A stretch of DNA of 30,845 bases from a virus. Shown here piece by piece: positions 7,110 through 21,906 of the stretch. The notes beneath the pieces were generated by a model. That model had not been told where the DNA came from. It was given only the letters and a program-made list of their open reading frames with translations, and made no database searches. Location of the stretch: positions 1 to 30,845 of IMG/VR virus record IMGVR_UViG_3300037104_000437, one strand, 5' to 3'. Both the position numbers and the translations under genes were made by a program. Numbering within the stretch: position 1 is the stretch's first letter; the number at the start of each line of letters is the position of its first letter.

Positions 7110-7113
7110 TTAT

Positions 7114-7797
7114 TCAATCCTCCAAAGGAATCCACCATCTATCTTCAAAATCAATAGCAGATAAACAAACCCATTTACAATTGTTATCAAAACCTTGTTG
7201 AAATTTATGCATATGACCAAAATACCAAAGTTTTGGTTTATATTTATTTAGCAAATAACTTAAAGCTTTTCTAGAAGGATCTGAAGAATATTCTTCATGA
7301 TAATCTTTAATTTTGAATTCAGTTGGTGCTGTATGAGAAATTATAATATCAATTTCTTCATCGGGAAGTTCTTCAATATCTTTTTGAGATATTGTTTCTT
7401 CCCAAAACCATCCAAAATCTAATCCTCTTTCTGTTCTATATTTTCTATCAATTGATAGACCACCACCCATGAATAAAACTTTTCTTCCATCAGGAATAGT
7501 TAATATAGATCCTCTTTTCATATAAAAAACATTTGGACTAACTTCATTTGTTTTTAAGTTTTTTAAAGATTCCCAGTCTTCATGATTTCCTGGACACCAG
7601 AAAACTTTTACATGTTTATTTTTTAAACCATAGTTATTCCATCTAATGACACCTTTATTAAGAAAAGTCTTTCCATGAAACCTTGGCCACCATCCAAAGT
7701 CTCCACATTGTAAAATCATGGAGATTTTCAGGTGACTATTTAAGAACTGATTTACTTTTGACCAGCTACCATGAAAATCTCCACACACTGCAATCAT
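7114..7797 (-). CDS. Calcineurin-like metallophosphoesterase
   Basis: All metal-ligand motifs of the calcineurin-like phosphoesterase fold are present in this 227-residue protein. They are GDFHG (Asp7, His9), CGDFGW (Asp33), PGNHEDW (Asn71, His72), IISHTAP (His155) and YFGHMHK (His195, His197). These enzymes use a two-metal centre to hydrolyse phosphoesters of nucleotides, nucleic acids or phosphoproteins. The length is that of a single catalytic domain without extra modules. It overlaps the preceding gene as ATGA. In an RNA-repair-rich neighbourhood a nucleic-acid end-processing or nucleotide-hydrolysing role is plausible but unproven. Confidence 0.92.
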   Translation of the reverse strand: MIAVCGDFHGSWSKVNQFLNSHLKISMILQCGDFGWWPRFHGKTFLNKGVIRWNNYGLKNKHVKVFWCPGNHEDWESLKNLKTNEVSPNVFYMKRGSILTIPDGRKVLFMGGGLSIDRKYRTERGLDFGWFWEETISQKDIEELPDEEIDIIISHTAPTEFKIKDYHEEYSSDPSRKALSYLLNKYKPKLWYFGHMHKFQQGFDNNCKWVCLSAIDFEDRWWIPLED

Positions 7798-8051
7798 TTT
7801 AATTCCTCCACCTCTTTTTTTGTTAAGAATGCTAATTTTTTTTCATCTATAATCTGATTTAATGAATATCCCCATACTTTTTCACCAGGGATTCCTACAT
7901 CCTTTTCTATAACTTCTCCGTCAAACTCAAATATTTTAAATAATCTTCCTTCTTTTGGAATATTCATTTCTTTTGGAGTTTTGAAATATATTGCAATAGA
8001 TACAACTTTCGAACCCCAGTCCATTTTTAAAACTCTTCCTATTTCTTTCAT
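7794..8051 (-). CDS. Small hypothetical protein
   Basis: An 85-residue acidic protein with strands suggested at GSKVVSIAIYFKT and GRLFKIFEFDGEVIE and a C-terminal helix (TKKEVEELK). The start follows AAGGA, and its stop overlaps the metallophosphoesterase start, so the two are co-translated. No known family recognised. Confidence 0.78.
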   Translation of the reverse strand: MKEIGRVLKMDWGSKVVSIAIYFKTPKEMNIPKEGRLFKIFEFDGEVIEKDVGIPGEKVWGYSLNQIIDEKKLAFLTKKEVEELK

Positions 8052-8060
8052 AATAGATCC

Positions 8061-8519
8061 TTAATATGGAAGTTTTAATTCTTGTCTTGCTAAATAGATA
8101 GTTCTAACTGCCATTTTAATTTCATGATGTTTTGCTGAAGTTAATTTCATTCTTTGACATGCGTAATCTAAACAAGTATAACTTCGTAATTCTCTTGGTA
8201 ATTTACATCTCATTTTTTCATCATCAAAAAAACCATATGTTTTTGAATCAAATAAAAACATTTCCTTAATTTTTTCCATCAATTGAAATGTTTCATGATA
8301 TTTTGGTTCTCTAAAATGTCCAACTTTTCTAGCGCAAGCACCACAACAACCAGTTGGTTTTTCTGATTTATTATCTTTTCCACAATCTGAACAAATATCA
8401 TCATTCAGTTTATCAAAAATTTTTGCTAAAATTTTTGCTTGTTTAGAAATTATAAAAAATTCAGTGCTTGTATAGTATGGTGGAAATAGTAATTGAAATA
8501 TCTTTGGAACTCGTTTCAT
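8061..8519 (-). CDS. Cysteine-rich YkgJ-like protein, paralogue A
   Basis: The protein has 152 residues counted from the ATG at 8519, which has GAGG nine bases upstream; the ATG at 8528 is only two bases from that site. Cysteine motifs are ICSDCG, GCCGACARKVGHF, and a C-terminal CKLPRELRSYTCLDYAC. The last motif, arginine-rich between cysteines, recalls the end of YkgJ-type metal-chelating clusters. It aligns along its full length with the product of 8536-8985, sharing KILA(K/D)IFD, the cysteines, FGFF, LPRE(L/I)RSYTCL and a final LPY. The two therefore arose by tandem duplication. Likely binds a metal or cluster; role unknown. Confidence 0.82.
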   Translation of the reverse strand: MKRVPKIFQLLFPPYYTSTEFFIISKQAKILAKIFDKLNDDICSDCGKDNKSEKPTGCCGACARKVGHFREPKYHETFQLMEKIKEMFLFDSKTYGFFDDEKMRCKLPRELRSYTCLDYACQRMKLTSAKHHEIKMAVRTIYLARQELKLPY

Positions 8520-8535
8520 AGGTAACATCCTCTAA

Positions 8536-8985
8536 TTAATATGGAAGATTTAAATCCATTTTAGCAAGTTGTATAATTTTAGAACTTATTCTAACTTTAT
8601 CAACTTGATCTCCAGTTAATTTCATATCTCCACATATATAGTTTAAACAGGTATAACTTCTTATTTCTCTGGGAAGACTACAAATCATTTTTTCACTATT
8701 AAAGAACCCAAATTTTTTCTTGTCAAAATTAAACTTCTTTTTCATTTTATTTAGAAAAAGATTAGAGACAATATTATCATACAAATTTCTGAAATATCCA
8801 TTTGAATGACCACAGTCTGAACAGCAGCCATATTTTAAGTCTCTGGTTTGAATTCTTGGACAGGTTGAACAAATTTCTTTATTTTTCTCATCAAAAATGT
8901 CTGCTAAAATTTTTGAATTATCAATAATTATTCTATAATGCAAAGAGTGATCTGCTTCAAATAATTCCTTAAGTAATTTTTTCAT
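8536..8985 (-). CDS. Cysteine-rich YkgJ-like protein, paralogue B
   Basis: This 149-residue sister of the preceding gene product has ICSTCPRI, GCCSDCGHSNGYF and CSLPREIRSYTCLNYICGDMKLTG. The ten or so cysteines are kept between paralogues while the rest diverges, which points to metal or cluster binding under selection. AAGGA precedes the start, and the ATG overlaps the stop of the gene before it. Function unknown. Confidence 0.82.
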   Translation of the reverse strand: MKKLLKELFEADHSLHYRIIIDNSKILADIFDEKNKEICSTCPRIQTRDLKYGCCSDCGHSNGYFRNLYDNIVSNLFLNKMKKKFNFDKKKFGFFNSEKMICSLPREIRSYTCLNYICGDMKLTGDQVDKVRISSKIIQLAKMDLNLPY

Positions 8986-9176
8986 TTGTTAATATCCTTA
9001 AAGGTTTTATCATCATAAAAATTAGTATAACTAAATAGTTTATGATTTTCTCCGTTAAAAATCCTATCAACTTTTCTTCTTGCACCTGAAATAGTTTTTA
9101 ATTGAAATAGTAATTTATTAAAACTTCCTAATGGTTCATTTCCATTTTTATCTGGTAAGTATGCGTAAAATTTCAT
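8982..9176 (-). CDS. Small basic hypothetical protein
   Basis: A 64-residue protein beginning MKFYAYLPDKNGNEPLGS; the tyrosine-rich start and LGSFNKLLFQLKTISGARRKV suggest a small alpha/beta fold. A GTG three codons upstream is an alternative start, but the ATG at 9176 is preferred by analogy with the identical GTGAATAAAATG arrangement at 2697. There is no cysteine cluster. Function unknown. Confidence 0.68.
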   Translation of the reverse strand: MKFYAYLPDKNGNEPLGSFNKLLFQLKTISGARRKVDRIFNGENHKLFSYTNFYDDKTFKDINK

Positions 9177-9199
9177 TTTATTCACTTTGATCTAATATA

Positions 9200-9403
9200 T
9201 CATATAAATGATAAAGACTTATTTTTTTTAACTACTTTTAATTTTCTTATTCCATGCCTTAAAACTTTAGCTAATAAATAGTCATCAATTCTATATCTTC
9301 TATCTTCATTATCAATTAGATTAATCTCTAAACGATATCTACAATTTATATTACATCTTTTAATATTATCTAAATCTAAAATTGGGGGATAATCTTCTGA
9401 CAT
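9200..9403 (-). CDS. Small hypothetical protein
   Basis: A 67-residue protein starting MSEDYPPILDLDN at 9403. This ATG has AAAAGGAAATAAA directly upstream and follows the stop of the preceding gene. A longer reading in this frame would run antiparallel to good sense through the neighbouring gene and is rejected. The sequence is strongly charged (DNEDRRYRIDDYLLAKVLRHGIRKLKVVKK), with two cysteines in KRCNINCRY. Function unknown. Confidence 0.7.
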   Translation of the reverse strand: MSEDYPPILDLDNIKRCNINCRYRLEINLIDNEDRRYRIDDYLLAKVLRHGIRKLKVVKKNKSLSFI

Positions 9404-9404
9404 T

Positions 9405-9617
9405 TTATTTCCTTTTCTTATACTTTTTTGGTTCCCATCTTTCAGATATAAATTCCATATCATCTCCACATTCTGAGCATATAGGAATCCCAACACTTTC
9501 AATATCTTTATATGTTACATTTTTTTGTATCATATGATCATGAAAAGGACATTTCCATGCACTAAAAGAATTTCCACTTTTAATTTTTCCCAATTGTTTT
9601 ATAGTTTCAAGAACCAT
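9405..9617 (-). CDS. Small zinc-ribbon-like protein
   Basis: This 70-residue protein has a CPFHDH element (about residues 23-28) and ICSECGDDMEF (about 47-57). Together they supply the cysteine/histidine ligands of a small zinc ribbon, with a basic C-terminal tail (KKYKKRK). AAGGAG precedes the start. It probably binds zinc and possibly nucleic acid; this is inferred from composition. Confidence 0.75.
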   Translation of the reverse strand: MVLETIKQLGKIKSGNSFSAWKCPFHDHMIQKNVTYKDIESVGIPICSECGDDMEFISERWEPKKYKKRK

Positions 9618-9629
9618 ATTTTTATCTCC

Positions 9630-10742
9630 TTAACTTTTTGAATATTTAGAAATAATTGATTGTAAATCTTTTAATATCATTTGAGAATCATTAGATAAAA
9701 CAACAGGAACTACTTCTAACTTCCCAAAATACATCTCTAAACAATCTAATAAAATTTGTTTAACTTTTAATTCATTCGGATAATTAGGCAGTTTACTTTC
9801 AAGATATACTTTTTCTAATTCTATTTCTTTTATGCTGAAGTAATTTGTAACTTGTTCTAATGTCCATTCTCCTCGTCTTATAGCTTTTAACTGCTCTCTG
9901 TTTCTATCAAGCTCCAGATTTCCCTCAACTAAAATTTGTTCAATTTCATTTAGAAGTCGAACTACATGATAAGCAAATTTTACATCAAATCCAAATTTTT
10001 TAATACTTGCTAAACGATTACCAAGTTTTCCTCCTTCTTTTAAACATTCTCTCATGATATTATAAAGTTCTCTTACATCATTTGTTTCTAATTTATCAAC
10101 TCCAGTTTCTTTAATATTTAATAACTCCTTTGAACATTGTAATTCTCTATTTCCACGTCTAATTAACTCAACTACAATTAGATCACTATTTAATTCTTCT
10201 GGATCTATTGATAGTTTATTACATTTATCTACCAGTCCTTTTAATGATTTATTATTCATCTTGTGAACTTGAGAAAATGCATAACCTTTAAATTTAAACC
10301 ATGAACCTTTATGTAAAAATTCTTTTCGTCTTTCTCTTAAATAGTTAGCAATAGAAGTTGATTGTAAAATACAAAATTGTGGAACAAATAAAGAATCTAT
10401 CATGTTCGGATTGTTTTCCATACATAACATGAAATATTTCACAATGTTATAAATGGTAACATCATACATTATTCCTTTTGATTTATCCTGAATATGATGT
10501 TTCATAAATTGTTCAAACCCCTGCTTTTGTCTACCAAATCCTACAATCTCTCCATTAAGATGAGGAAATATTATTTCTTTATATGGAATACAAAACCCAT
10601 AGATATCTCTATCTGATAAATCTGAACTTACTCCATATGCAATTGATCCCATCATAACTTCATATTGAACACTATTATAAAGAAATGATGGAACATCTTT
10701 TATTAGTTCCCTCTTTATTAAATCATCAATTAAGCTAGACAT
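9630..10742 (-). CDS. RlaP-type Pol-beta superfamily nucleotidyltransferase
   Basis: The N-terminus of this 370-residue protein shows GSIAYGVSSDLSDRDIYG (residues 32-49), the Gly-Ser ... Ser-Asp-x-Asp active-site signature of the Pol-beta nucleotidyltransferase fold. The version matches the YcgL/RlaP family (RNA-ligase-associated nucleotidyltransferases). A long helical C-terminal region follows. In phages and bacteria this family often accompanies RNA ligases and repair enzymes, and a role in RNA end modification is presumed rather than shown. The window adds a Thg1-like polymerase and a CCA-adding enzyme nearby but no RNA ligase. AAGGAG lies upstream of the start at a slightly long distance. 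Confidence 0.85.
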   Translation of the reverse strand: MSSLIDDLIKRELIKDVPSFLYNSVQYEVMMGSIAYGVSSDLSDRDIYGFCIPYKEIIFPHLNGEIVGFGRQKQGFEQFMKHHIQDKSKGIMYDVTIYNIVKYFMLCMENNPNMIDSLFVPQFCILQSTSIANYLRERRKEFLHKGSWFKFKGYAFSQVHKMNNKSLKGLVDKCNKLSIDPEELNSDLIVVELIRRGNRELQCSKELLNIKETGVDKLETNDVRELYNIMRECLKEGGKLGNRLASIKKFGFDVKFAYHVVRLLNEIEQILVEGNLELDRNREQLKAIRRGEWTLEQVTNYFSIKEIELEKVYLESKLPNYPNELKVKQILLDCLEMYFGKLEVVPVVLSNDSQMILKDLQSIISKYSKS

Positions 10743-10757
10743 ATTAATGAAGTCTCC

Positions 10758-11183
10758 TTATACCTGTGAAATTCCAAAATTACAATCTTTAAATTTTAAT
10801 GATGCCATCTGATTTATTTTTATTTTTTTAGCTTTTGATACTGTTAAAATTTCAGATCTTACAGCTTCAATTCCTGATCCTTTAAACCCACTTTCTATTT
10901 TTCCAACTGAATAATAACTATTTTTTGGAATTAACATTCCTATTATCCAAACTGGTTGATATGTTCTTATAATGTGAGCATATGTAGTAGCATTTTTTTT
11001 AGATAAAAACGAATGATAACCAAAACCATCAAAAAACCCATGAGATCTATTAGAGCAAACATCAAAAACAGTTTGATCTTTATCTTTAAATGGTAATGTT
11101 ATTTTTTCATCTCGTATAAAAAATACTTTAAATACTCTTATACTTTTTTGTGTAAATTCACTTTTGGTTAATTCTAAGCACAT
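10758..11183 (-). CDS. Hypothetical protein, GFGYHSF family, paralogue A
   Basis: A protein of 141 residues starting MCLELTKSE behind AAGGAG. It aligns with the product of 11174-11596. Shared blocks are MC at the start, (F/Y)KVF...LPF, G-F-x-x-GFGYHSF with a preceding basic residue, MLIPK/MIIPKG, and GSG(I/L)xAxRSE(I/F)L near the end. The GFGYHSF and GSG...RSE blocks hold conserved His, Ser, Arg and Glu residues that could form an active or binding site. No known family comes to mind. The gene overlaps its paralogue by ten bases. Confidence 0.8.
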   Translation of the reverse strand: MCLELTKSEFTQKSIRVFKVFFIRDEKITLPFKDKDQTVFDVCSNRSHGFFDGFGYHSFLSKKNATTYAHIIRTYQPVWIIGMLIPKNSYYSVGKIESGFKGSGIEAVRSEILTVSKAKKIKINQMASLKFKDCNFGISQV

Positions 11184-11596
11184 TTGATTTTTTCTCCTTT
11201 TGGTAATTGAAGAAATTCAGATCTTGTTGCTCTTAATCCAGATCCAACATAACCATGTTGAATTATTCCTCTTTCATATACAGTTCCTTTTGGAATTATC
11301 ATTTTCACAATTACTTTATGTTTATGATTCATTTTAATTTTATATAGTTCAGCTTGTTTTAAAGAACCAAAAGAATGATAACCAAAACCATAATTAAATC
11401 CGTAAGCTCTGGTATTTACTACATGATTTATAGTTGAGTGAGTTAAAGATACCTTTGTTAATTTATATTGATCAATTCCATTAACTCTTCTAAATGGTAA
11501 AACTAATTTTTTATAATAAGATAAAAAAACTTTATATACAACTAGATTTTTTTCAGCTACTCTAATAATATCATTTTTCTTTGCTTTTATACACAT
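11174..11596 (-). CDS. Hypothetical protein, GFGYHSF family, paralogue B
   Basis: This is a 140-residue sister of the preceding protein. The start at 11596 (MCIKAKKND) is chosen because it aligns with the MC start of the paralogue and has GAGGA seven bases upstream. An in-frame ATG at 11662 with AAGGA upstream would add 22 residues with no match in the paralogue. Key blocks are YGFNYGFGYHSF (about 66-77), VKMIIPKGTVYERG and GSGLRATRSEFLQLPKG. Tandem duplication is evident; function unknown. Confidence 0.8.
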   Translation of the reverse strand: MCIKAKKNDIIRVAEKNLVVYKVFLSYYKKLVLPFRRVNGIDQYKLTKVSLTHSTINHVVNTRAYGFNYGFGYHSFGSLKQAELYKIKMNHKHKVIVKMIIPKGTVYERGIIQHGYVGSGLRATRSEFLQLPKGEKIKCA

Positions 11597-11671
11597 ATTT
11601 TTTTCCTCAATATTTTGATTTGTAATGTTTTGATATATTGGCTGACTCCAAGTGAGTGACATTTAATTCCT

Positions 11672-11848
11672 TTATCTCCTTATTATAAATAATATAGCTT
11701 CTAAACATTCTCTACATAGTCTTTTTGATACAGAATAATACTTTGCAGATCCTATAAATTTTAAATGTTTTTCTTCTGGATGAATTTGATTATTACAGTT
11801 TGTACAAAATACATATTTTTTTGGTTCTACAGCAACACTAAAACCCAT
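11672..11848 (-). CDS. Small zinc-binding protein (58 aa)
   Basis: This short gene encodes 58 residues, starting MGFSVAVEPKKYVFCTNCNN and ending ...LFIIRR. Two CxxC knuckles (CTNC at 15-18 and CREC at 45-48) flank a basic stretch, the layout of a small zinc ribbon. AAGGAG lies ten bases upstream of the ATG at 11848, and the stop is buried in sequence that supplies the ribosome site region of the next gene. A strong hairpin (11870-11905) sits just upstream of its ribosome site. Function unknown; the coding call rests on ribosome site, cysteine pattern and packing. Confidence 0.72.
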   Translation of the reverse strand: MGFSVAVEPKKYVFCTNCNNQIHPEEKHLKFIGSAKYYSVSKRLCRECLEAILFIIRR

Positions 11849-11869
11849 TTTAATTTTTCTCCTTATTGA

Positions 11870-11905
11870 TCTAGTAGAGTCTTATTAAAAATAGACTCTA
11901 CTAGA
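11870..11905. other. Perfect 13-bp inverted repeat between genes
   Basis: TCTAGTAGAGTCT at 11870-11882 is exactly complementary to AGACTCTACTAGA at 11893-11905, with a ten-base loop. It is the most stable hairpin I see in the window outside the tRNAs. On the minus strand it lies between the stop at 11915 and the ribosome site of the 58-aa gene, and no U-run follows it, so it is not a standard terminator. It could stabilise or process the mRNA, modulate translation of the next gene, or bind a protein as DNA. Confidence 0.8.
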
Positions 11906-11914
11906 ATTTTAACA

Positions 11915-12451
11915 CTAGTCATAGATATCTGAAAATACAGCTAGAGCTTCTGCTTTATGTTTAAATCCATCAAATCTTTTTGCCCAACAATCACAATCTT
12001 GAATAACCCCATTATCTATTATGGGATTTTTTTGTCTGAAGGAACATATTTTTCCTTCATTGTTATTGTGACTACATTCAGCCATGCATTTTTCTCTTTT
12101 AATTTTTAATATCTTTTTATTTTCTACTTTTGGATATTCTGATCTTGTTGGGTGTGAAGGATAATTAAATGAAATTTTACTAACTTTTTTTATACTTGTT
12201 TGGTCTTTTAATTCACAAAGAAGAATTTCATAAGGGTATCCTCCATATACCATGGGTGTTATTTTAAAACCTTTTTCTCTTAACATCTTAACAAATAATA
12301 ATGGAACTTCACAGTTATATTCTCTATTCCACTTACTCTTTTCCTTATTCGAAATATTATAGGAATTAAATTTTACAAAACGATCAACTAATTTAAAGAA
12401 GTTTTCAAGAGAATAATTCTCAAAAGACTTTGGTACTGATATTCCTCGCAT
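11915..12451 (-). CDS. Hypothetical protein
   Basis: A 178-residue protein with a strong GGGGAGGAG ribosome site. The N-terminal half is helical (ENFFKLVDRFVKF), then FKITPMVYGGYPYEILLCEL suggests strands. The C-terminal third has cysteines in KCMAECSHNN, KICSF and DCDCW that may bind metal. A PTRSEYPK segment recalls the RSE block of the two GFGYHSF proteins, but the similarity is too short to build on. No family recognised. Confidence 0.78.
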   Translation of the reverse strand: MRGISVPKSFENYSLENFFKLVDRFVKFNSYNISNKEKSKWNREYNCEVPLLFVKMLREKGFKITPMVYGGYPYEILLCELKDQTSIKKVSKISFNYPSHPTRSEYPKVENKKILKIKREKCMAECSHNNNEGKICSFRQKNPIIDNGVIQDCDCWAKRFDGFKHKAEALAVFSDIYD

Positions 12452-12482
12452 TTTATTTTCTCCTCCCCATACCTAATTTAGT

Positions 12483-13814
12483 TTAATTTTTGGTTATTAG
12501 ATTAATTAACTTTTCCGCGTCATTTAACTCAGGATCATCTAAAACACAATCCATTAAATATTTTAAAATCTCACCAACTTCTTTTCCTGGTTTTAATCCT
12601 GTTACTTCCATAACTTTAAAACCATCAATTGCAAGATCTGAAAATTTAGAAACTGATTTTCTATTAATCTCAGTTTTAAAAGCTTTAACAAGATTATAAA
12701 TATCTCTCATTCTATATGTTTCTCTTGCTTTTAATCCACCCATCTTATCAGAAATAGCAACCCGAACTAAATCTTTATATGTTAAATTATCATCTGATAA
12801 TGTTTTTAAAGTTCTTCTTACACCCTTCGGACTTGTTCTTTCATGAGAAATTCTCATATGATTTTTAACTAAATTTGAAACATACGAAATTTCATCATTT
12901 GAGAATTTAAGATGAGATAAATCTTCTATAACAGCAGTGTGTCCAGTTTGTTCATGACCTTCAAACCATAAATCATCTGTTCGTGGATTTATTCTAGATG
13001 AAATAGGTTTACCAACATCATGAAGATATCCAGCTAATTTGATTAAAGGATATTTAGTTGATACATGATCTCCTGCCATCATACAGTGATCATATACATC
13101 TTCAATATGATACGGACCACCAGGATGTAAATAAGAATCATCTAAACTTGGAAGGATATATTTCAATCCTCCAATATCATGTAATGCTGTAAAAAATCTT
13201 GATGATTTTTTAATGGTTGATAATGCTTTCAAAATTTCTAATCTTATTCTTTCTTCTGCTACAGATGAGTCAATATAATGAGAATACATTTTAAGAAATT
13301 CGAAAGTTAAATCTTCAAAGTAACCATTAATTTTTGCTAAAAACCTACATGCTCTGATAATTCTATTAGGATCTTCAAAGATTCTATGCATTGGAATTCC
13401 AATAAATCTAATTATTTTTTTATGTAAATCAGATTGACCATTATGAAAATCTATAATTTCTTTATTTATTGGATTATAAACAATTTGGTTGATTGTGAAG
13501 TCACGTCTGGAAACATCTTCTTCGAGACTAGAACAAAATCCAATCTCACAGTTCTTATCATTTAAACCATGATATATATCGAATCTGTAAGTTGCAACCT
13601 CAATATCATCAACCAAAATTACCCCAAACGATTTTCCAACTTCTTTTATTTTTTGTGTTTTAAAAAGATCAATTATTTCTTCTGGTTTGGCAGATGTTAC
13701 GATATCTATGTCTTTAGATTTTAAACCCATTAACATATCTCTTACACATCCACCAATAAAAAATGCTTCAAATCCATTTGCTTGAAGTTTATATACTATT
13801 TCATACGGCGTCAT
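12483..13814 (-). CDS. cca: CCA-adding tRNA nucleotidyltransferase (class II) with HD domain
   Basis: This 443-residue enzyme adds or restores the CCA end of tRNAs. Class II motifs appear in order: FIGGCVRD (19-26), DIDIVTS with the metal-binding Asp pair (35-37), RRDFTIN (103-109), EDPNRIIRACRF (147-158) and ERIRLE (188-193). The C-terminal part carries HD-domain residues (HIEDVYDHC, LAGYLHDVGKP, a later His in GHEQTGH), as in bacterial CCA enzymes that also have phosphohydrolase activity. Length fits an HD-containing bacterial type. AAGGAG precedes the start. The gene lies 19 bases behind tRNA-Gln, which has no encoded CCA, so the operon supplies both substrate and enzyme. Confidence 0.96.
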   Translation of the reverse strand: MTPYEIVYKLQANGFEAFFIGGCVRDMLMGLKSKDIDIVTSAKPEEIIDLFKTQKIKEVGKSFGVILVDDIEVATYRFDIYHGLNDKNCEIGFCSSLEEDVSRRDFTINQIVYNPINKEIIDFHNGQSDLHKKIIRFIGIPMHRIFEDPNRIIRACRFLAKINGYFEDLTFEFLKMYSHYIDSSVAEERIRLEILKALSTIKKSSRFFTALHDIGGLKYILPSLDDSYLHPGGPYHIEDVYDHCMMAGDHVSTKYPLIKLAGYLHDVGKPISSRINPRTDDLWFEGHEQTGHTAVIEDLSHLKFSNDEISYVSNLVKNHMRISHERTSPKGVRRTLKTLSDDNLTYKDLVRVAISDKMGGLKARETYRMRDIYNLVKAFKTEINRKSVSKFSDLAIDGFKVMEVTGLKPGKEVGEILKYLMDCVLDDPELNDAEKLINLITKN

Positions 13815-13833
13815 TTTTTCTCCTTTTTATGAG

Positions 13834-13904
13834 TTCAGGGAGAAAGATTCGAACTTTCGTGAGAGGGTCCAAAACCCTCTATACTTCCACTATATGATCC
13901 CTGA
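13834..13904 (-). tRNA. tRNA-Gln(UUG) without encoded CCA
   Basis: On the minus strand the acceptor arms TCAGGGA/TCCCTGA pair perfectly, with discriminator A. The anticodon arm GAGGG-TTTTGGA-CCCTC gives anticodon TTG, which reads CAA and CAG glutamine codons. The T arm GAAAG-TTCGAAT-CTTTC is perfect, and the D arm (ATA...TAT) is short but formable. The U1-A72 pair is typical of bacterial tRNA-Gln. The 3' end continues as CTC rather than CCA, so the mature end must be added by a nucleotidyltransferase. The gene sits between a terminator-like hairpin and the CCA-adding enzyme gene. Confidence 0.93.
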
Positions 13905-13915
13905 AGAATAATATA

Positions 13916-13949
13916 TTAAAAATGGGATATAAACATACCCCATTTTTAA
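13916..13949 (-). terminator. Hairpin terminator or attenuator between small gene and tRNA-Gln
   Basis: TTAAAAATGGG at 13916-13926 is the exact complement of CCCATTTTTAA at 13939-13949, with a 12-base loop. On the minus strand the stem ends in a U-rich 3' arm followed by AAUAUAUU, and it begins two bases after the stop of the preceding gene. This fits an intrinsic terminator whose U-run is part of the stem; the symmetry could make it work in both directions. It would limit read-through from the upstream promoter into tRNA-Gln and everything beyond. Confidence 0.55.
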
Positions 13950-13951
13950 AT

Positions 13952-14137
13952 TTACACTGGTCTGAACAAATTTGAAAATTTTTCTAAATCTGCTACTCTG
14001 TAATATCCTGCTCTAATTTTTTGAGTAGGAAAATTTAATAAAACTGTGTTTGATATTATATCAGGATTTATGGTTATTTCCTGAACCTCTACTACTGAGT
14101 TATCAAAAAATTTGTAAACTTGTCCTACTTGGATCAT
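13952..14137 (-). CDS. Small hypothetical protein
   Basis: A 61-residue protein beginning MIQVGQVYKFFDNSVVEVQEI; the pattern of short strands suggests a small beta barrel of SH3-like type. AAAGGAG precedes the start. It is the second gene behind the leftward promoter and is followed at once by a terminator-like hairpin, so it and its neighbour may form a highly expressed short transcript. Function unknown. Confidence 0.72.
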   Translation of the reverse strand: MIQVGQVYKFFDNSVVEVQEITINPDIISNTVLLNFPTQKIRAGYYRVADLEKFSNLFRPV

Positions 14138-14158
14138 AAAATATTCTCCTTTCTTTGA

Positions 14159-14329
14159 TTAATTTTTATCAAGTTTATTTATATCTCCGTTTACTTTTTT
14201 ACGAAAATTTTCAATCTGTTCTTTAGGTATTATAAAAGCATAAGGCCCAAGGATAGATGATAATACCCCTCTCAAATTTTCAAGTTGCTCCGATGTAAGT
14301 TCTTTATTCATAATTTCTTCAATACTCAT
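14159..14329 (-). CDS. Small hypothetical protein, first gene of the leftward cluster
   Basis: A protein of 56 residues counted from the ATG at 14329 (MSIEEIMNKELTSEQLENLR), which has an AAGGGGG ribosome site upstream. The longer reading from 14371 would start almost at the promoter element and has no ribosome site. The protein is helical and charged, with a central LSSILGPYAFIIP segment. It is promoter-proximal in the accessory cluster. Function unknown. Confidence 0.7.
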   Translation of the reverse strand: MSIEEIMNKELTSEQLENLRGVLSSILGPYAFIIPKEQIENFRKKVNGDINKLDKN

Positions 14330-14373: not shown

Positions 14374-14390
14374 ATTAATATATATAGTAA
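14374..14390 (-). promoter_or_regulatory. Promoter element A (leftward), TTACTATATATATTAAT
   Basis: On the minus strand this 17-base sequence lies 44 bases upstream of the first leftward gene and recurs exactly at 30544-30560 upstream of a rightward gene. It is AT-rich with a TATAAT-like core (TATATT). I infer a phage promoter class serving the accessory cluster; the sigma factor or polymerase is unknown. Confidence 0.65.
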
Positions 14391-14425
14391 AAGTAACTTT
14401 AAATAAAATACTCAACCTAGCAATT

Positions 14426-14445
14426 TTCAAGAACAAATAATAAAT
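14426..14445 (+). promoter_or_regulatory. Promoter element B (rightward), TTCAAGAACAAATAATAAAT
   Basis: This 20-base sequence lies 23 bases before the first gene of the tail operon and recurs exactly, on the other strand, at 30489-30508 before the lipoprotein/terminase operon. Its TAATAAAT end recalls the T4 late promoter TATAAATA, though this is only a resemblance. I infer a late promoter for structural genes. Confidence 0.65.
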
Positions 14446-14468: not shown

Positions 14469-14639
14469 ATGAATATACTTAATTTGTATCTTGAATATTT
14501 ATCAAAAGAGCAAGTATCTTCTGCAGCAGGAATATGTGGAATTGATTCTATCTCTTCTGGAAAACCTTTAAAAATGCCAATTAAAAAAAAGAACGATGAA
14601 GATAAGGAAGATGAAGAACAAAATGAAGATGAAGATTAA
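14469..14639 (+). CDS. Small protein with strongly acidic C-terminus
   Basis: A 56-residue gene product reading MNILNLYLEYLSKEQVSSAA at the start and ending in a run of about 16 mostly Asp/Glu residues (from NDEDKEDEE onward). A weak GGGA lies eight bases before the ATG. It is the first gene behind the rightward promoter, ahead of the tail tube gene. A short helix followed by an acidic tail could suit an assembly factor or DNA mimic, but this is speculation. Confidence 0.62.
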   Translation: MNILNLYLEYLSKEQVSSAAGICGIDSISSGKPLKMPIKKKNDEDKEDEEQNEDED

Positions 14640-14641
14640 TA

Positions 14642-14667
14642 TAATTAAAACTATTTTATTTTAATTA
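14642..14667 (+). other. All-A/T inverted repeat ahead of the tail tube gene
   Basis: TAATTAAAA at 14642-14650 pairs with TTTTAATTA at 14659-14667 across an eight-base loop, directly after the stop of the small acidic gene. The stem has no G-C pair, so it would be weak; it may be a partial terminator, an mRNA end stabiliser, or chance in AT-rich DNA. Confidence 0.3.
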
Positions 14668-14707
14668 GAAAATATATGCTTAACAAACAATAGGAGGAAA
14701 TAAAAAA

Positions 14708-15418
14708 ATGAAGACTTCGTTTGCTGTAACAGCCGACAATATTTTAACTAGAAAGTTTGGTGGTACTACTGTTGGAGTCGCCACCCCATATACATCAGGT
14801 CAGTTCTTTATCTGGTTTGAACCTCTTCCCGCAGCACTTAGTACTTATTTAGATGCTAATGCAAGTGGATTATCTGTTGATGATGCTCAAAAAATTCTTG
14901 CTGCATCATGTTTATCATTTACCCCTCCAGGTGGAACTTTAAATTCTATCGAATTTACTGGACTAGGTGGAATCAAATGGAATGCACCTGGAAATATAGA
15001 ATATGGAACAGCTTTCACAGCTAAATTTCTTGAGTTTTCCAAAACACCAATTCTTAATATTTTCCATTCTTGGGTTAAAATGATTAGAGATTATAGATTA
15101 GGAATTTCTGACATTTTAAAGGACGATGATGATGGAAGCGGCTGGGTAAAATCAAAATATGCTTCAACTTTATACTATTGGACAACTGCTCCTGATGGAA
15201 TTTCCATAGAATATTATGCTTGCTATGATGGAGTTTTTCCAACTAAAGATCCTCAAGATTTATTCTCTGGTGACGTTGAAACTGTTGGAAGACTTGATAT
15301 AGAACAAGAGTTTAAATTTGACTATATGTGGCACGAACCATGGGTTAAGTCAAAATGCGAAACTTACGCTTCTGCTCTTACTGCTGCAGCAAGTGCAGTT
15401 AAAAGTTATCAATACTAA
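14708..15418 (+). CDS. Tail tube protein (T4 gp19-like)
   Basis: A 236-residue protein whose C-terminal half resembles contractile-tail tube proteins. YACYDGVFPTKDPQDLFSGD (about 173-192) is followed by EQEFKFDYMWHEPWVKSKCE, the strand pattern around which gp19-type subunits stack into hexameric rings. The N-terminal half has alternating strands (FTGLGGIKWNAPG). A strong AGGAGG ribosome site suggests high expression, as expected for a subunit present in hundreds of copies. It precedes the baseplate genes in the same operon. The family call rests on overall pattern and context, not on a catalytic motif. Confidence 0.75.
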   Translation: MKTSFAVTADNILTRKFGGTTVGVATPYTSGQFFIWFEPLPAALSTYLDANASGLSVDDAQKILAASCLSFTPPGGTLNSIEFTGLGGIKWNAPGNIEYGTAFTAKFLEFSKTPILNIFHSWVKMIRDYRLGISDILKDDDDGSGWVKSKYASTLYYWTTAPDGISIEYYACYDGVFPTKDPQDLFSGDVETVGRLDIEQEFKFDYMWHEPWVKSKCETYASALTAAASAVKSYQY

Positions 15419-15485
15419 AAATTGATTTTCGAATAAAGTAAACAATAAAAATAATGAATAGTTCAGAATGAAAGGAGATTAAAAA

Positions 15486-16280
15486 ATGCCATTCAAAGGT
15501 TTCAATTTAAAGTACCCAGAGTATGAGGTAATTACTCCTCATACACATTTATCTTTTTCTCTTAGATCACTCAGTGTTTCTGAGGAAGAAAGATTAAAAG
15601 GTAGTCTTTTGACTCCAACTAAGATTACTGAGCACCTGAATAAATGTTTATATGAATCTATTGTTCAAAAACCTGAAAGTATTACAGATTATAAAACATT
15701 TTTAAAATCTTTAAGTTTAAAAGATAGAGATGCTCTCTTATATGGTCTTTATCACATAACATATGAAGAAATTAGAAACTATGATATTAGATGTACTAAT
15801 TGCAAAAAAGAATATCCTGTTACAGTTAAAGCTTCTGATATGTTTAGTATTAATCCATATCCATTTGAAGATATTTTATCAAAAAAATATAAGGTTGAAC
15901 TTCCTATATCAAAAGGAGTATATGCATATATAAAGCAACCTAGTATTGATGAAGAAGAAATAGCTATAAAGACATTATCAGCTACTCCTGGTTTAACAAT
16001 TGAAATGATTACAGAAACATTAATTGTTGATAGATTTGAACAAGATGTTGAAGAGGCAGTTGCTGATCCAATAGTTTATGCTAGCAGATATGATATTATT
16101 GATGCATATAGAAGTTTACCCGCAAGAGATAAACGAGTAATTTATGAAAAGTATAATGAAGAGTTTGGAAAATTTGGGATTGAATTAAAGATGAAATCTT
16201 TTTGTACACACTGCGGATTTGAGGAGGTAATTAAAGTCGACATGGTCGAAAACTTTTTTCGCATGGTATACTCTTCATGA
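15486..16280 (+). CDS. T4 gp26-like baseplate hub/assembly protein (zero-frame product)
   Basis: This 264-residue protein resembles the T4 gp26 baseplate family. It has an N-terminal helical region, a zinc-knuckle pair CTNC (Cys103, Cys106) and CTHC (Cys240, Cys243) that should close one zinc site, and a C-terminus ending ENFFRMVYSS. AAAGGAG precedes the start. In T4 this family works in hub assembly rather than as a major structural part. Just before the stop lies a six-T run after which the +1 frame stays open for 73 codons without its own start codon, so a longer product is likely. A second ribosome-site-like GAGGAGG (16221-16227) precedes the internal Met253. Confidence 0.8.
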   Translation: MPFKGFNLKYPEYEVITPHTHLSFSLRSLSVSEEERLKGSLLTPTKITEHLNKCLYESIVQKPESITDYKTFLKSLSLKDRDALLYGLYHITYEEIRNYDIRCTNCKKEYPVTVKASDMFSINPYPFEDILSKKYKVELPISKGVYAYIKQPSIDEEEIAIKTLSATPGLTIEMITETLIVDRFEQDVEEAVADPIVYASRYDIIDAYRSLPARDKRVIYEKYNEEFGKFGIELKMKSFCTHCGFEEVIKVDMVENFFRMVYSS

Positions 16281-16482
16281 GGTTGAAATAGATAAATATA
16301 AAAAGAATTTAAGTGAAACTATATTTTCAGCTATTGAATTATGTCACCAAACATACAGTGATATAATAACTATGCCTGTTAAAAGATTATATGATTTATT
16401 AAAATGGAAAACAGATTTAGAAGAAGAAAAATCTAAAATAATGAAAGAAAAACAAACTAAATCTGGTAGTCATAAAAAATAA
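16254..16482 (+). CDS. Probable +1 frameshift extension of the gp26-like protein
   Basis: From the TTTTTTC at 16254-16260 the +1 frame reads AWYTLHEVEIDKYKKNLSE and onward, a helical charged domain ending ...KSGSHKK at the stop 16480-16482. In this frame the last stop upstream is at 16228-16230, and no ATG, GTG or TTG lies between it and the slip site, so independent initiation is unlikely. Ribosomes slipping from UUU to UUC at this site would make a fused protein of about 332 residues, as tail assembly chaperones do in many phages by frameshifting. A one-base error in the T run would give the same picture. Confidence 0.65.
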
Positions 16483-16499
16483 TATAAGAGGGTAAATAT

Positions 16500-16928
16500 T
16501 TGGCAAATCTATTAGATAAATTTAAGAAAAATGTTGTAGGATCTAATAGTAAGGTTTCCGATTATACTTGTAAATTAACACCATCTGGAGAATTTACAAG
16601 AATTAATGATTTAGAAGCAATATTAAATTCATGGAATAATATTTTATTAACCCCAAAAGGAAGTTATGACCATGACCCAGCATATGGGAGTAATTTATAT
16701 AAATTTGTATTTGAACCAGCTGATGATCAAACAATAGAAGAAATAAAAGATGAAATTGAAACAGTTTTAGAAATTTATGATAATAGAGCAACTCCTTCTA
16801 ATATTACTATTAATTTTTTAAAAGAAAATAAAGGTTTTTCAGTTGATATATCTGTTGAGTATGACCACCAGGAAGGACAATTATCTGCTATTATAGATAA
16901 AAATACTTATTTTAACTTATCTTCTTAA
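16500..16928 (+). CDS. Baseplate wedge protein, T4 gp25-like
   Basis: This 142-residue protein matches the gp25/lysozyme-like wedge family. LEAILNSWNNILLTPKGSYDHDPAYGSNLYKFVFEP (about 38-73) has the conserved sequence in which a loop enters PxxGSxxxxPxxGSxLxxxLFEP. The C-terminus forms the expected strands. Gp25 links the wedge to the tail tube end and helps nucleate sheath assembly. The start is a TTG at 16500, seven bases behind GAGGG; no closer ATG exists. It lies between the gp26-like gene and further baseplate genes, as in other contractile phages. Confidence 0.88.
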   Translation: MANLLDKFKKNVVGSNSKVSDYTCKLTPSGEFTRINDLEAILNSWNNILLTPKGSYDHDPAYGSNLYKFVFEPADDQTIEEIKDEIETVLEIYDNRATPSNITINFLKENKGFSVDISVEYDHQEGQLSAIIDKNTYFNLSS

Positions 16929-16947
16929 AAAATAGGAATAATAAATA

Positions 16948-17469
16948 ATGATTCTATACTATTGTGTACTTAAAAATTACAAAGGTATTTTTAAGAAAAA
17001 GCATGTAGGGAATACACATCTATTTCTAGTTCCAATTTCAGAAGAAGCATATTTATATTTGGGAATGATTGGGGAACTAATTGATAATAAAGGAGTTTAT
17101 GCAACACAATTGATTATAAGATTATCTTCTGAAATAGTAGAAGATATTATTGAAAAAGAAAAAGAATATTTTAAAGATAGATTTATTGTGTTAGAAGAAA
17201 TAACATGCACACCAACAAAAATAACTTCTGGTGAGTATGATATTAAATTGGATGAAAAAGGAAAAATGATCTTATCTGATTTACATATTGATTTTGAAGC
17301 AGATTATAGTACTGATAAAAGAAGAATTTATTTAATGACTGGTGAATTTGATTTTGAATCTTCTGATATTAAATCAACAACTGATATGAAAATGTCAGCA
17401 GATAAGAAAATGGCTTATATGGGTGATAAAACAAGATATGAATCTTATATAATAAAAACGGAGGAATAA
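16948..17469 (+). CDS. Hypothetical protein in baseplate operon
   Basis: A 173-residue protein, rich in strands and charged turns, for example HLFLVPISEEAYLYLGMIG near the N-terminus and LSDLHIDFEADYSTDKRRIY at about 112-131. The C-terminal third is acidic with lysines and repeated methionines. AGGA precedes the start. The place between the gp25-like gene and two membrane-segment proteins suggests a baseplate or tail assembly part; I do not recognise the family. Confidence 0.78.
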   Translation: MILYYCVLKNYKGIFKKKHVGNTHLFLVPISEEAYLYLGMIGELIDNKGVYATQLIIRLSSEIVEDIIEKEKEYFKDRFIVLEEITCTPTKITSGEYDIKLDEKGKMILSDLHIDFEADYSTDKRRIYLMTGEFDFESSDIKSTTDMKMSADKKMAYMGDKTRYESYIIKTEE

Positions 17470-17474
17470 TTAAG

Positions 17475-18167
17475 ATGGAAAAAAATAAAGCAATTGACTC
17501 TAAAATATTAGAAATGGCTTGTAAAGATTATTTGCTTGCTGCAGTTACTAATAGCGCATCTTTAAGAAAAAAATTAACTTTTGCTGAACAAGTTAAATTG
17601 ACAGAACATGTTATGTCTATGAGTTATAAAGATTTAGTTTCTGTATTATTTTACGAAGGTAAAAATATTACAACTGAGAAAATTACAGACTTTGAAGGTA
17701 AAACTAAAAAGGCTTTAAAATATGGAGCTGCAGGGTTTGTAGGAAGAAAAATTGGAAAGACTGCAATTGGTGGAGCTCCACTAAAAGCTCTTGGGTTTAC
17801 ATTAAAAAAGGGAAGTGGTGTAGCTGATAGAATGACACATGGGGGAACAAAAGGTGGATTTTTAGGAGCTCTTGGTGGGGTTGGTCTTTTTTATCTATAT
17901 AGAAAACTTACAGATCCTTGTGTTCGAGCATCGTTATCTATAAAAAATATTGGTCATAGAAAATTAGCTAAACACGAATGTCAAGCAGCAGCAGCTAAAA
18001 AAGTTATTTCTACAATATCTTCAGATTTATCTAAGTGTGCAGAATCTTCTAATCCAGAAAAATGTAGGAGAAAATTACAGAGTGAAATCATGAAATGGAG
18101 AAAAAGATATCAAAAAGAATTAATTGAAATTTCAAAGTTAAAATCTAAAGAAGGAAATAAGGGTTAA
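17475..18167 (+). CDS. Glycine-hairpin/cysteine virion protein, paralogue A
   Basis: In this 230-residue protein an N-terminal helical region leads into glycine-rich sequence (about 80-126). A hydrophobic stretch GGFLGALGGVGLFYLYRKL (127-145) is followed by a C-terminal coiled, basic region with spaced cysteines (about 149, 169, 188, 197). GGAGG overlaps the end of the preceding gene. The next gene product has the same order of parts: hydrophobic glycine segment, RKLY, spaced cysteines including SKC, then KCRxKLxxEI. The two look paralogous. A membrane-inserting tail component is possible, but no function is known. Confidence 0.8.
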   Translation: MEKNKAIDSKILEMACKDYLLAAVTNSASLRKKLTFAEQVKLTEHVMSMSYKDLVSVLFYEGKNITTEKITDFEGKTKKALKYGAAGFVGRKIGKTAIGGAPLKALGFTLKKGSGVADRMTHGGTKGGFLGALGGVGLFYLYRKLTDPCVRASLSIKNIGHRKLAKHECQAAAAKKVISTISSDLSKCAESSNPEKCRRKLQSEIMKWRKRYQKELIEISKLKSKEGNKG

Positions 18168-18169
18168 AA

Positions 18170-18748
18170 ATGCCCTCAAGTTTTAAGTTAATTAGAGATA
18201 AACTTATAGCAATTATAGAATCAAGTTCTTTAACTAAATTTGAATCTAATTATTTAATAGAAAGTACTAGAGATCTTTCAGACTCTAGTACTTTCAAATT
18301 GTTATTTTTGTTAAATGAGAAGTCTAGTTCAGAAACTCAAAAAATGATAAAAATAGCTTTAACATCTGGAATAGCTGGAGCAATAATAGTTACTCCAGGT
18401 GGCATTCCGATTGCTTTATTAACTAGAAAATTATATCAAATGTATAATTGGAAATGTGGATATAATTGTAAAATAAATAAAAAAATTAAAGATAAAAAAT
18501 TATGTTATAAAAAATGTAATGTAAAGTCTCTTGAAAAAGTAGAGGATATGTTAAAATCTGAGATTTCTAAATGTAAAAACTTTAAAGCTCAAAAATATTC
18601 AGAAGATAAAATCACAAATAAAATTAAATCTATTAATTTACAAAATAAATGTAGAAATAAACTATTTAATGAATTAATCAAAATAAGACAAAAGAGAGTA
18701 GAAGCAGATTTAAAATTAAGTCAATACTTAAGGAGTCTTAATAAATAA
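18170..18748 (+). CDS. Glycine-hairpin/cysteine virion protein, paralogue B
   Basis: This 192-residue protein has a membrane-like segment with GIAGAIIVTPGGIPIALL (about 67-84). A lysine- and cysteine-rich region follows, with Cys at about 96, 100, 112, 116, 135 and 161, and then a helical end (LIKIRQKRVEADLKLSQYL). It shares the hydrophobic segment, RKLY, E-I-SKC and KCRNKL features with the preceding protein. Both are highly basic. The stop overlaps the next start (TAATG). The cytoplasm is reducing, so the cysteines may bind metal or become oxidised in the particle. Function unknown. Confidence 0.8.
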   Translation: MPSSFKLIRDKLIAIIESSSLTKFESNYLIESTRDLSDSSTFKLLFLLNEKSSSETQKMIKIALTSGIAGAIIVTPGGIPIALLTRKLYQMYNWKCGYNCKINKKIKDKKLCYKKCNVKSLEKVEDMLKSEISKCKNFKAQKYSEDKITNKIKSINLQNKCRNKLFNELIKIRQKRVEADLKLSQYLRSLNK

Positions 18749-19392
18749 TGCAGAATTATCAGCGGCAGTATGCCTATATAAATGAATTTTGGAGTGAGTT
18801 GTATGACATATATAGTAAACATGCTGTTGCTTATTTAGTTACATATTATAATATAGATACAAGTACTACTGTTTGGGATAATGAATTTTTAATGGGTGGT
18901 TCTTATGAAAAAATTGGAAGTTTATCTGGAATAAAGTGGAATAAATATTTATTTCTTCCTGTTTATTTTATTGAAGAAACATCTACAACCTTTGATGCTC
19001 AAGAAACAGGTTATGTAAATGAAGGTAATTCTGCAATAGTTTTTCCAGATACATATGGACTTATACCATATCCAAATGATATGGTTGTAATTGGTAGAAA
19101 ACAATATTATTCAACTGATCCAGATTCATATGCTATTTTTGCTGTAACAGGATTAACAAAACAAGGACCAGATAAGACTTATTGGAAATTAACGTTAACT
19201 GTTGAACAATCAAGAACAAACCAAGAAGTAGATCTACAAGTATCAAATAACTATATTTTTTATGAGTATGATAAAAAAATTCACACAATTCCTGAATCTC
19301 AAACGATGACACGAATGTTATCTAAATCAGAAATTTTAAGATCAAATTTAAAAAATTTATATGATGATAATTCAGGATTATATTTCGTATAG
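18748..19392 (+). CDS. Virion structural protein of baseplate/tail operon
   Basis: A 214-residue protein rich in Tyr, Trp and Phe. The N-terminal half runs YYNIDTSTTVWDNEFLMGGS, then SGIKWNKYLFLPVYFIEE. A block around IPYPNDMVVIGRKQYY (about 108-123) looks like paired strands. This pattern recalls structural proteins found next to gp6-like genes in large myoviruses, but I cannot name a T4 equivalent. AAGGAG lies slightly far upstream, with the start overlapping the preceding stop. It ends with TAG, which argues against recoding of that codon. Confidence 0.75.
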   Translation: MQNYQRQYAYINEFWSELYDIYSKHAVAYLVTYYNIDTSTTVWDNEFLMGGSYEKIGSLSGIKWNKYLFLPVYFIEETSTTFDAQETGYVNEGNSAIVFPDTYGLIPYPNDMVVIGRKQYYSTDPDSYAIFAVTGLTKQGPDKTYWKLTLTVEQSRTNQEVDLQVSNNYIFYEYDKKIHTIPESQTMTRMLSKSEILRSNLKNLYDDNSGLYFV

Positions 19393-19425
19393 AAAAATAA
19401 AGTTTTAACTAAATGGAGATTTGAA

Positions 19426-21906
19426 ATGGCTGTAGACACTAGTATAAGTAATCAAATTTATTTATCTAGAGATCAAATTAGAACTCAAATAATAGAATAT
19501 ATACAATATTATATGGAGTTGGAAAATGTAGATTTAACGAAATCATCTTTTCTTTCTTTTGTAATAAATATATTATCAACTTTAACTTCAAATCTTCTAT
19601 TCTATGAAACTTCTGTATATAAAGAATTTTTCCTCACAAAAGCTCAACTTCCTGAATCAATTATTAATTTATCAGCTTTCTTAGGATATAATACCAGAGA
19701 AGCATCATTTTCTACAGCAAATATTCTAATGTCTATTCCTCTAGGTTTTGGAGACTCAAATGCAACATTTTATATTCCAAATGGGTTTATATTTTATGCA
19801 GGAGCAATTCAATTTACAACATATTATTCTGTAGCAATAAACGTAGTAAATAATGCATCTGTTACTATAACGGTAACAGATGGAAGTAAATCATATAATT
19901 TACCTGTTGAAATAGATTATACTGTACCAGAATTTAGATTTGTTTTACCTGTTAGACAATATAAATTTAGTCAACAAGAATTTCAAATAGATTCAGATTT
20001 ACAAATATATCAATTTGTAACAATAGATGTTCCCATTAAAGGTAAAGTTTCTAGTTTAGCTGTTGAAGTCATAGATCCAAATGGTTCAGGATCAACTACT
20101 TATACAGAATATAATAGTTTATATTTAATGTCTTCAACTGATTATGGATTTGTTTCAAGAAGAACTCCAGCAGGAAGAACTTTATATTTTGGTAATGGAT
20201 TAATAGGAGCTCAACCAGCAGCTGGTTCAACGGTTGCGGTTACAATATATGAAACAGAGGGTGAAGATGGAAATGTAATTACTGCATCTATAAACAAAGG
20301 GGATAAAATTTATATTACAACATTGTCTGGAGCGGTACAAATTGTTAATTATACCTGTGTTAATACATCTCCAGCTAATGGTGGTCAAGACGAAGAATCA
20401 ACTGAAGATATTAGATCTAATTCAATAAAAAATTTAGTTTCACTTGGTCGACTAGTTTCAGAAGTTGATTATCAAAATACTGATGTAGTTATTCCATATT
20501 CTCCGTTTCATTCTTCTCCGCTTCCTGTTTTAAAAAGATCAGATATTAAGTGCAATGAAATTCAATTATACTCTAATTTAGATTTTGGTGGGGTTTTGGT
20601 TCCAACAAGAAATGAGAAATTAATAGTTCCTAGATCAACTACTAATATTCCAAGAGGAACAATTATAACATCTAATGGTGTTAATTATTCTACACTATTT
20701 AATCTTACATTAGATTATACAAATGGTTCAGGATATTATGATTATATAATGTATGATGTTACTCTTACACCAAATCTACAAACAACTTTTAATCCAAGTT
20801 ATAATGATATTGCAATTCAAAATTTAAATATGTATCTTGATTCTACAACTGGAGCTGCTGTTTTTGAATTAACTTACACCGGAACTGATACAAATGCTTC
20901 ATGTAAATTAGAAATAATGAAATCAAGTCAAATTTATCAAATGACAAATGATACAACAAATAAATTATTTACATATTCGTTTAATCCTTATACTTTATTT
21001 CCAGATGGTGATATAATTCTTAATTTTATAATTAGTTCTGGATCAACTCAAATATGTATATATTCTATAACAGTAACTTTTAGAAAATCACTAAATGATT
21101 TTATGATGTCAAATATGATAGATGATCCTATTAATAATATAGCTACCATATATGATATTCCAGTTATATTAACAAGTTATTATAATTCTATAATTAAAAA
21201 AGACTTCGAACTTCAAGTTTTACAATATATGATGTCATCATTAACATTTTCAAATTATAAAATGATAACAGATTTTGTTAATGTTAAATTTTCTAATACA
21301 ATTGGACTTTTAACAAATATGCAATATAACAATATAACAAAATCAAGTGTTATGAGTATAAGCCAATCTTCGGTTCCTCATGGAAATATAGGAGATTCAT
21401 ATATTGTTAATGGAACAGAGGGTGGTGTCTGGACTGGTCAAAAAAATAATATAGCGCAATGTATAGATAGTACTTCGCAAACTTGGTATTTCTTTAATCC
21501 AATTATGGATGATATGATTTATGTTGCAGATGTAGATCTAAAATACATATTTACTGGGTCACAATGGTTCCTTCCTGAATATAATATACCTTTACAAATT
21601 AGTATAGAGGTTGTTAAAGCAACTGATTATTTATCATCTGATTCTGCCTTAACAAGTTTAATACAATCTAATATCTTAAGTGCTTTTAAATCTAGATTTG
21701 GTTCCAATATTAGTCTTTATAGATCAGAAATAATAGCAGTAGTTCAAGAAACTGATGGAGTAGGATATTGTAATTTAATAAAACCAGAATCTAATATATT
21801 TTTTAATTTTAATCTTGATGATTTTAGTCAATCTCAATTATTAGAGTATACTCCAGAATATATTTATTTTTCAATTTCAGATATTTCTGTAAAGGTTTTA
21901 GGTTAA
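19426..21906 (+). CDS. Baseplate wedge protein, T4 gp6 / baseplate J-like
   Basis: At 826 residues this is the largest plus-strand gene. An N-terminal helical region (SRDQIRTQIIEYIQYYMELE and a following LSTLTSNLLFYE) precedes strand-rich domains. The stretch RRTPAGRTLYFGNGLIGAQP (about 246-265) followed by STVAVTIYETEGEDGNV is typical of gp6/baseplate-J proteins, and so is the EDIRSNSIKNLVSLGRLVSEVDY block (about 326-348). Two gp6 chains per wedge form the ring around the hub in contractile tails. The C-terminus holds an SALTSLIQSNILSAF helix typical of the family. TGGAG precedes the start. Confidence 0.87.
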   Translation: MAVDTSISNQIYLSRDQIRTQIIEYIQYYMELENVDLTKSSFLSFVINILSTLTSNLLFYETSVYKEFFLTKAQLPESIINLSAFLGYNTREASFSTANILMSIPLGFGDSNATFYIPNGFIFYAGAIQFTTYYSVAINVVNNASVTITVTDGSKSYNLPVEIDYTVPEFRFVLPVRQYKFSQQEFQIDSDLQIYQFVTIDVPIKGKVSSLAVEVIDPNGSGSTTYTEYNSLYLMSSTDYGFVSRRTPAGRTLYFGNGLIGAQPAAGSTVAVTIYETEGEDGNVITASINKGDKIYITTLSGAVQIVNYTCVNTSPANGGQDEESTEDIRSNSIKNLVSLGRLVSEVDYQNTDVVIPYSPFHSSPLPVLKRSDIKCNEIQLYSNLDFGGVLVPTRNEKLIVPRSTTNIPRGTIITSNGVNYSTLFNLTLDYTNGSGYYDYIMYDVTLTPNLQTTFNPSYNDIAIQNLNMYLDSTTGAAVFELTYTGTDTNASCKLEIMKSSQIYQMTNDTTNKLFTYSFNPYTLFPDGDIILNFIISSGSTQICIYSITVTFRKSLNDFMMSNMIDDPINNIATIYDIPVILTSYYNSIIKKDFELQVLQYMMSSLTFSNYKMITDFVNVKFSNTIGLLTNMQYNNITKSSVMSISQSSVPHGNIGDSYIVNGTEGGVWTGQKNNIAQCIDSTSQTWYFFNPIMDDMIYVADVDLKYIFTGSQWFLPEYNIPLQISIEVVKATDYLSSDSALTSLIQSNILSAFKSRFGSNISLYRSEIIAVVQETDGVGYCNLIKPESNIFFNFNLDDFSQSQLLEYTPEYIYFSISDISVKVLG

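Follow-up and report, generated by a model that had tools for sequence, protein, structure and literature searches.

What would two short DNA elements, repeated back to back in the only divergent gaps of an uncultured viral genome fragment, do for the phage that carries them? The window analyzed here is the whole of IMG/VR record IMGVR_UViG_3300037104_000437, a fragment of 31 kb (30,845 nucleotides) with a GC content of 28%, and its open reading frame (ORF) map contains two divergent strand switches only. As an earlier note on this DNA had described, both gaps contain exact copies of two elements: A, TTACTATATATATTAAT, at 14374-14390 (minus strand) and 30544-30560 (plus strand), and B, TTCAAGAACAAATAATAAAT, at 14426-14445 (plus strand) and 30489-30508 (minus strand). 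The elements point away from each other in both gaps and are 35 nt apart each time. The note had proposed two promoter classes, B probably late and A earlier, and the comparative evidence below, together with the different gene classes behind the two elements, supports that proposal. We further suggest that the enzymes reading these predicted promoters are probably multisubunit RNA polymerases encoded by the phage itself and not the host enzyme.

B faces a structural operon at both sites, and A faces away from it, toward an accessory cluster at one site and a gene of unknown function at the other, just as the note had read the orientation. Based on ORFs, PHROGs, and Pfam, the operon downstream of the first B copy (14469..23024, plus strand) encodes a small gene, a virion structural protein, a T4-type baseplate protein, and gp25-like and gp6-like baseplate wedge proteins. 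The operon downstream of the second B copy (23021..30460, minus strand), assigned from ORFs and protein matches, encodes a small lipoprotein-like gene, a T4-type terminase large subunit, an unknown protein, an endolysin-domain protein, and a virion structural protein; a 1,091-amino-acid protein of this operon (24438-27713) carries an endolysin-type domain close to its C terminus. The cluster downstream of the first A copy (1..14329, minus strand; ORFs, PHROGs, and Pfam) contains genes for a tRNA nucleotidyltransferase, an RlaP-like nucleotidyltransferase, a metallophosphoesterase, Thg1, a radical SAM protein, and a C92 peptidase, along with many unknowns, and the gene downstream of the second A copy (30592..30845, plus strand) is unknown and runs off the contig. 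Pfam places an RNA-repair set behind A, made up of Thg1, the RlaP-like nucleotidyltransferase, and a CCA-adding type enzyme (2699-3397, 9630-10742, and 12483-13814), which suggests early tRNA repair. The same cluster also holds small paralogs arranged as two tandem pairs (8061-8985 and 10758-11662; repeats D2 and D3).

Within each element, a shorter core can be delimited. The A core, CTATATATATTAAT, was defined by exact match and by the core common to the clade, whose predicted start is a purine; the B core, AGAACAAATAATAAA, was defined by exact match and an AACA-(6N)-A-purine layout. At the first site, the A core lies at 14374..14387 (minus strand; predicted start near 14369) as a predicted early promoter for the accessory cluster, and the B core lies at 14430..14444 (plus strand; predicted start about 14443) as a predicted late promoter for the baseplate operon, with an unconserved spacer between the cores (14388..14429). 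At the second site, the B core at 30490..30504 (minus strand; predicted start about 30491) would serve as a late promoter for the small gene and then the terminase operon, and the A core at 30547..30560 (plus strand; predicted start near 30565) as an early promoter for the gene starting at 30592. The predicted starts would give leaders of approximately 26 to 40 nt. In shuffles of the window, B was matched by chance 0.15 times at up to three mismatches, compared to the two copies seen, both of which are exact; for A, chance gave 1.9 matches at the same tolerance compared to five seen, two of them exact. Being AT-rich and near-palindromic, A carries less weight than B when taken by itself.

Exact repeats of 17 and 20 nt with an equal 35-nt gap could also arise from recent duplication of one intergenic region under no functional constraint. 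However, the gap sequence is identical between the two copies at only 11 of 35 positions, and the same cores occur in phages with terminases that are 53 to 76% identical. The comparative data refute duplication, to which we give virtually no credence, and bear out the functional constraint that the note had claimed.

The comparison began with two relatives that were found without the motif, one from a terminase search (G001; 47.6 kb, 76% identity) and one syntenic relative from a baseplate search (G005; 50.3 kb), and both carry A together with B-type elements in the equivalent gaps. A core pattern was built from these, and the whole of IMG/VR was then scanned with it. The clade cores are (C/G)TATATATATTAAT for A and AGAACAAAT(A/T)ATAAA for B. 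The divergent A/B pattern occurs at 39 IMG/VR loci, whereas scans for the reversed pattern and for A in tandem with B returned no locus. The fixed geometry that the note had described stands within the window but not across relatives, in which the conserved cores are 14 nt (A) and 15 nt (B) long and the spacing between A and B ranges from 20 nt up to 50 nt or more, 20 and 50 being the limits of the scan. Since nine of the ten cases with a spacing of 50 come from near-identical relatives, raw locus counts are not independent, and we used 25 A and 23 B nonredundant modules. Several features that the search did not impose are shared among these modules: the base preceding A is C in 23 and G in 2 of the 25, the base preceding B is A in 23/23, and the predicted A start, 4 nt past the core, is a purine in 25/25. 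Querying with B as an exact 20-mer matched only unrelated contigs because the flanks of the B core are not conserved, and looking up the A and B motif strings in the full-text literature gave no relevant hit.

Terminase relatives gathered by protein alone gave a consistent picture. Among 16 close relatives (54 to 62% identity), 11 have B with up to two mismatches on the coding strand, no more than 110 nt ahead of the gene, and a divergent A is present in 4; among 15 distant relatives, B is present in 1 and A in none. In one terminase relative at only 26% identity (L144), the terminase match is preceded at approximately 97 nt by a B with one mismatch, and the reach of B may extend beyond the clade. 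Separately, the 595-kb uncultured huge phage LR756511.1 (W07) contains one exact B core (261475-261489) and two with one mismatch but no A. The only match in genome_contigs was to a contig from a Thermoplasmatales MAG (DAOVGR010000059.1, 4614-4660; L112). Several contigs of the same bin (G022 C10, C18, C31, and C47) carry many exact A cores, which points to a phage of this group binned with the MAG; the contig may be misbinned, and we do not take it as a host assignment.

The note had proposed scanning a full phage genome for both elements, which was possible in a relative with a 277,131-bp contig (G006). This contig carries a direct terminal repeat of 94 bp, and the same genome was recovered from another metagenome (G007) at 99.998% identity in circularly permuted form (loci L059-L072 versus L073-L084), so we consider it a complete circular assembly. 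In line with the proposal, A and B-like sites lie upstream of genes on the right strand. There are 13 exact A cores and no reversed cores, and of the 11 A sites in intergenic DNA, 9 precede a right-strand start codon by no more than 80 nt; 14 B-like sites are similarly placed within 80 nt of a right-strand start, with no reversed patterns. Scoring with a model trained without this genome, at a cutoff of 16 bits or more for A, yielded 16 A sites compared to 0/0/0 in three shuffled genomes, and the same left-out model yielded 13 B sites compared to 1/0/0. The top 25 hexamers enriched upstream of genes are all G-rich words of the Shine-Dalgarno type except for GAACAA (37 upstream versus 12.8 expected, with 8 antisense) and AACAAA (50 versus 19.5 expected, with 16 on the other strand). 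All 36 of 36 upstream GAACAA sites are preceded by a purine, and most have an AAA end at a fixed distance. At these 36 sites, where AACA is fixed by the query, the predicted B start and the next base are A or G in 31 and 33 cases, respectively, and the base before the predicted start is A in 22 and T in 9. Several B copies adjoin the Shine-Dalgarno sequence directly (AAAGGAG), so that a transcription start would have to sit at the 3' end of B, matching the AR9 late promoter. The genes behind B include the terminase, the baseplate block, the portal-capsid operon, DNA polymerase, very long genes, and both RNA polymerase operons, and those behind A are small unknowns and PilZ-domain, DnaJ-zinc-finger, and radical-SAM genes.

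From this placement we infer promoter activity. Operators or sites for replication or packaging would also fit a nearly palindromic A and two copies flanking the structural block, but these functions are hard to reconcile with more than 12 oriented copies in a single genome, mostly 15 to 80 nt upstream of starts, or with a B that abuts Shine-Dalgarno sequences, and we consider them very improbable.

Promoters in front of T4-type structural genes could instead be read by a host RNA polymerase that phage factors have redirected, as in T4 with its early host promoter and its gp55-type late promoter, TATAAATA. Like that promoter, B is AT-rich, particularly in its 3' half, and lies upstream of T4-type structural genes, and the B element of copy 2 in G005 includes an exact TATAAATA. 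However, the octamer is absent from both B copies in the window, where its exact occurrences fall away from B, and the conserved bases of B differ, being RGAACAAA plus AAA; on these grounds, B as a T4-type late promoter was rejected. Scans for sigma-70 promoters (-35/-10 with 16- to 18-nt spacing) found no more sites than in shuffles and none that overlapped A or B in the right direction, and a -35 signal upstream of A showed no conservation across the aligned modules, so a host sigma-70 reading was rejected as well. Combined with the two RNA polymerases encoded by relatives, these observations make transcription by a redirected host enzyme quite unlikely.

Although no RNA polymerase gene lies within the 31-kb window, dual beta/beta' sets are present in two relatives, G006 and G009. 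In G006, both pairs are full and also match solved structures (RNAP1, 81080-87010; RNAP2, 113878-121314). RNAP1 is 59 to 64% identical in G001, G005, G008, G009, and G010, which include the two closest relatives of the window, and RNAP2 was found also in G009. The best match of the RNAP2 beta' is g145 of the AR9 virion polymerase, a member of phrog_2986, which is also the best functional family for this subunit; phiR1-37 g099, which carries a structural-protein annotation, is closer to the RNAP2 beta than to the RNAP1 beta; and the RNAP1 beta' matches the AR9 non-virion g154. These matches suggest that RNAP2 is likely the virion enzyme and RNAP1 the non-virion enzyme, an assignment that rests on moderate evidence because the comparison set did not include the N-terminal subunit of the AR9 non-virion beta'. 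A search for the AR9 specificity subunit gp226 found no homologue.

The system closest to A and B in type, position, and use appears to be that of the Bacillus jumbo phage AR9, although the letters differ. AR9 also has two promoter classes and two multisubunit RNA polymerases. Its early promoter is AAATATATATTAT-(6N)-G and its late promoter is AACA-(6N)-TA/G, with the last base as the start in each case, and primer extension showed that the divergent gaps g120/g121 and g152/g153 are read early in one direction and late in the other (PMC5312081). A divergent early/late arrangement before virion genes is predicted for the clade as well. Like the AR9 early promoter, for which the annotated copies were inspected, A has an AT-rich block with the core TATATATTA and a predicted purine start; it reads CTATATATATTAAT, and with TTA aligned its distance from core to predicted start is about one base shorter. 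B shares the AACA-(6N)-x-purine layout of AR9 late promoters but has a purine before GAACAAA and mostly A at -1, where AR9 has T. The beta and beta' subunits of AR9 are split, and those of the clade are single chains. The AR9 late class also depends on uracil in the template strand, and early transcription of the phiKZ/AR9 type proceeds independently of protein synthesis, with AR9 early promoters staying active under chloramphenicol. Exact A or B was not found in AR9, phiR1-37, RHph_TM30, Carin-5, immuto, Va2, or the huge phage LR756508.

Other phages with two RNA polymerases offer a further comparison. The early promoters of phiKZ and phiR1-37, read by vRNAP, have an AT-rich block of approximately 10 nt near -10, and A, as a conserved AT-rich 14-nt core upstream of genes, resembles the early block of the phiKZ/AR9 type, with its timing being predicted; in that type a purine start lies 6 nt downstream of the block, compared to a predicted 4 nt for A. 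Among isolates, the capsid protein of G006 is best matched by the phiR1-37 head protein. In the phiKZ group, motifs vary from phage to phage, late promoters consist of TATG only, and they are not predictable from sequence (PMC7598289), whereas the clade described here shares one pair. The genomes also resemble the multimeric-RNAP-encoding Caudovirales (mReC), an uncultured group (Weinheimer and Aylward 2020, PMC7481178), in having unsplit beta and beta', a Gp23-type capsid, a T4-type terminase, and, in some cases, sizes above 200 kb. G006 carries both the Gp23-type capsid (PF07068) and the T4-type terminase. Promoters were not described in the mReC study (PMC7481178).

The polymerase roles could instead be swapped or shared, with one polymerase using different factors, or with the non-virion enzyme at A and the virion enzyme at B. 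Both polymerase gene sets of G006 (81080-88228 and 113878-125149; L063 and L113) lie downstream of B-like sites and neither is clearly behind A, and in a transcriptomic study of phiR1-37, early promoters could not be told from late ones by sequence (PMC4848604). We consider such an arrangement unlikely, as the A and B sequences are unrelated and each fits its AR9 class both in type and in gene class.

Overall, we consider it likely, with good confidence, that the window derives from a jumbo-type phage with two RNA polymerases of its own, with A as an early promoter for the virion enzyme and B as a late promoter for the non-virion enzyme. A, an AT-rich block of 14 bp centered near -10 and followed within a few bases by a predicted purine start, would most likely be read by a virion polymerase that enters with the DNA. 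B, with AACA at about -11 to -8 followed by six bases, A, and a purine start, would most likely be read by a non-virion polymerase made during infection. Placed back to back, the two would allow a single gap to serve accessory genes on one side early in infection and structural genes on the other side late. On balance, it also seems probable that one near-invariant vRNAP/nvRNAP promoter pair is common to an entire clade of uncultured jumbo phages that have T4-type particles, with divergent modules at both ends of the tail/terminase block that hard-wire early and late timing, unsplit phage polymerases, and a late code related to but distinct from that of AR9.

Judged from sequence comparison, what is added here is that A and B very probably represent the early and the late promoter in a two-polymerase phage group, as a pair conserved across that group. 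Sequence alone would thus suffice to predict early and late promoters in a large group of uncultured phages that has so far been recognized mainly by its RNA polymerases. As both promoter types appear predictable here, unlike in the phiKZ group, expression classes could be assigned in metagenomic genomes, and the promoter specificity of deep-branching polymerases would become directly testable in vitro.
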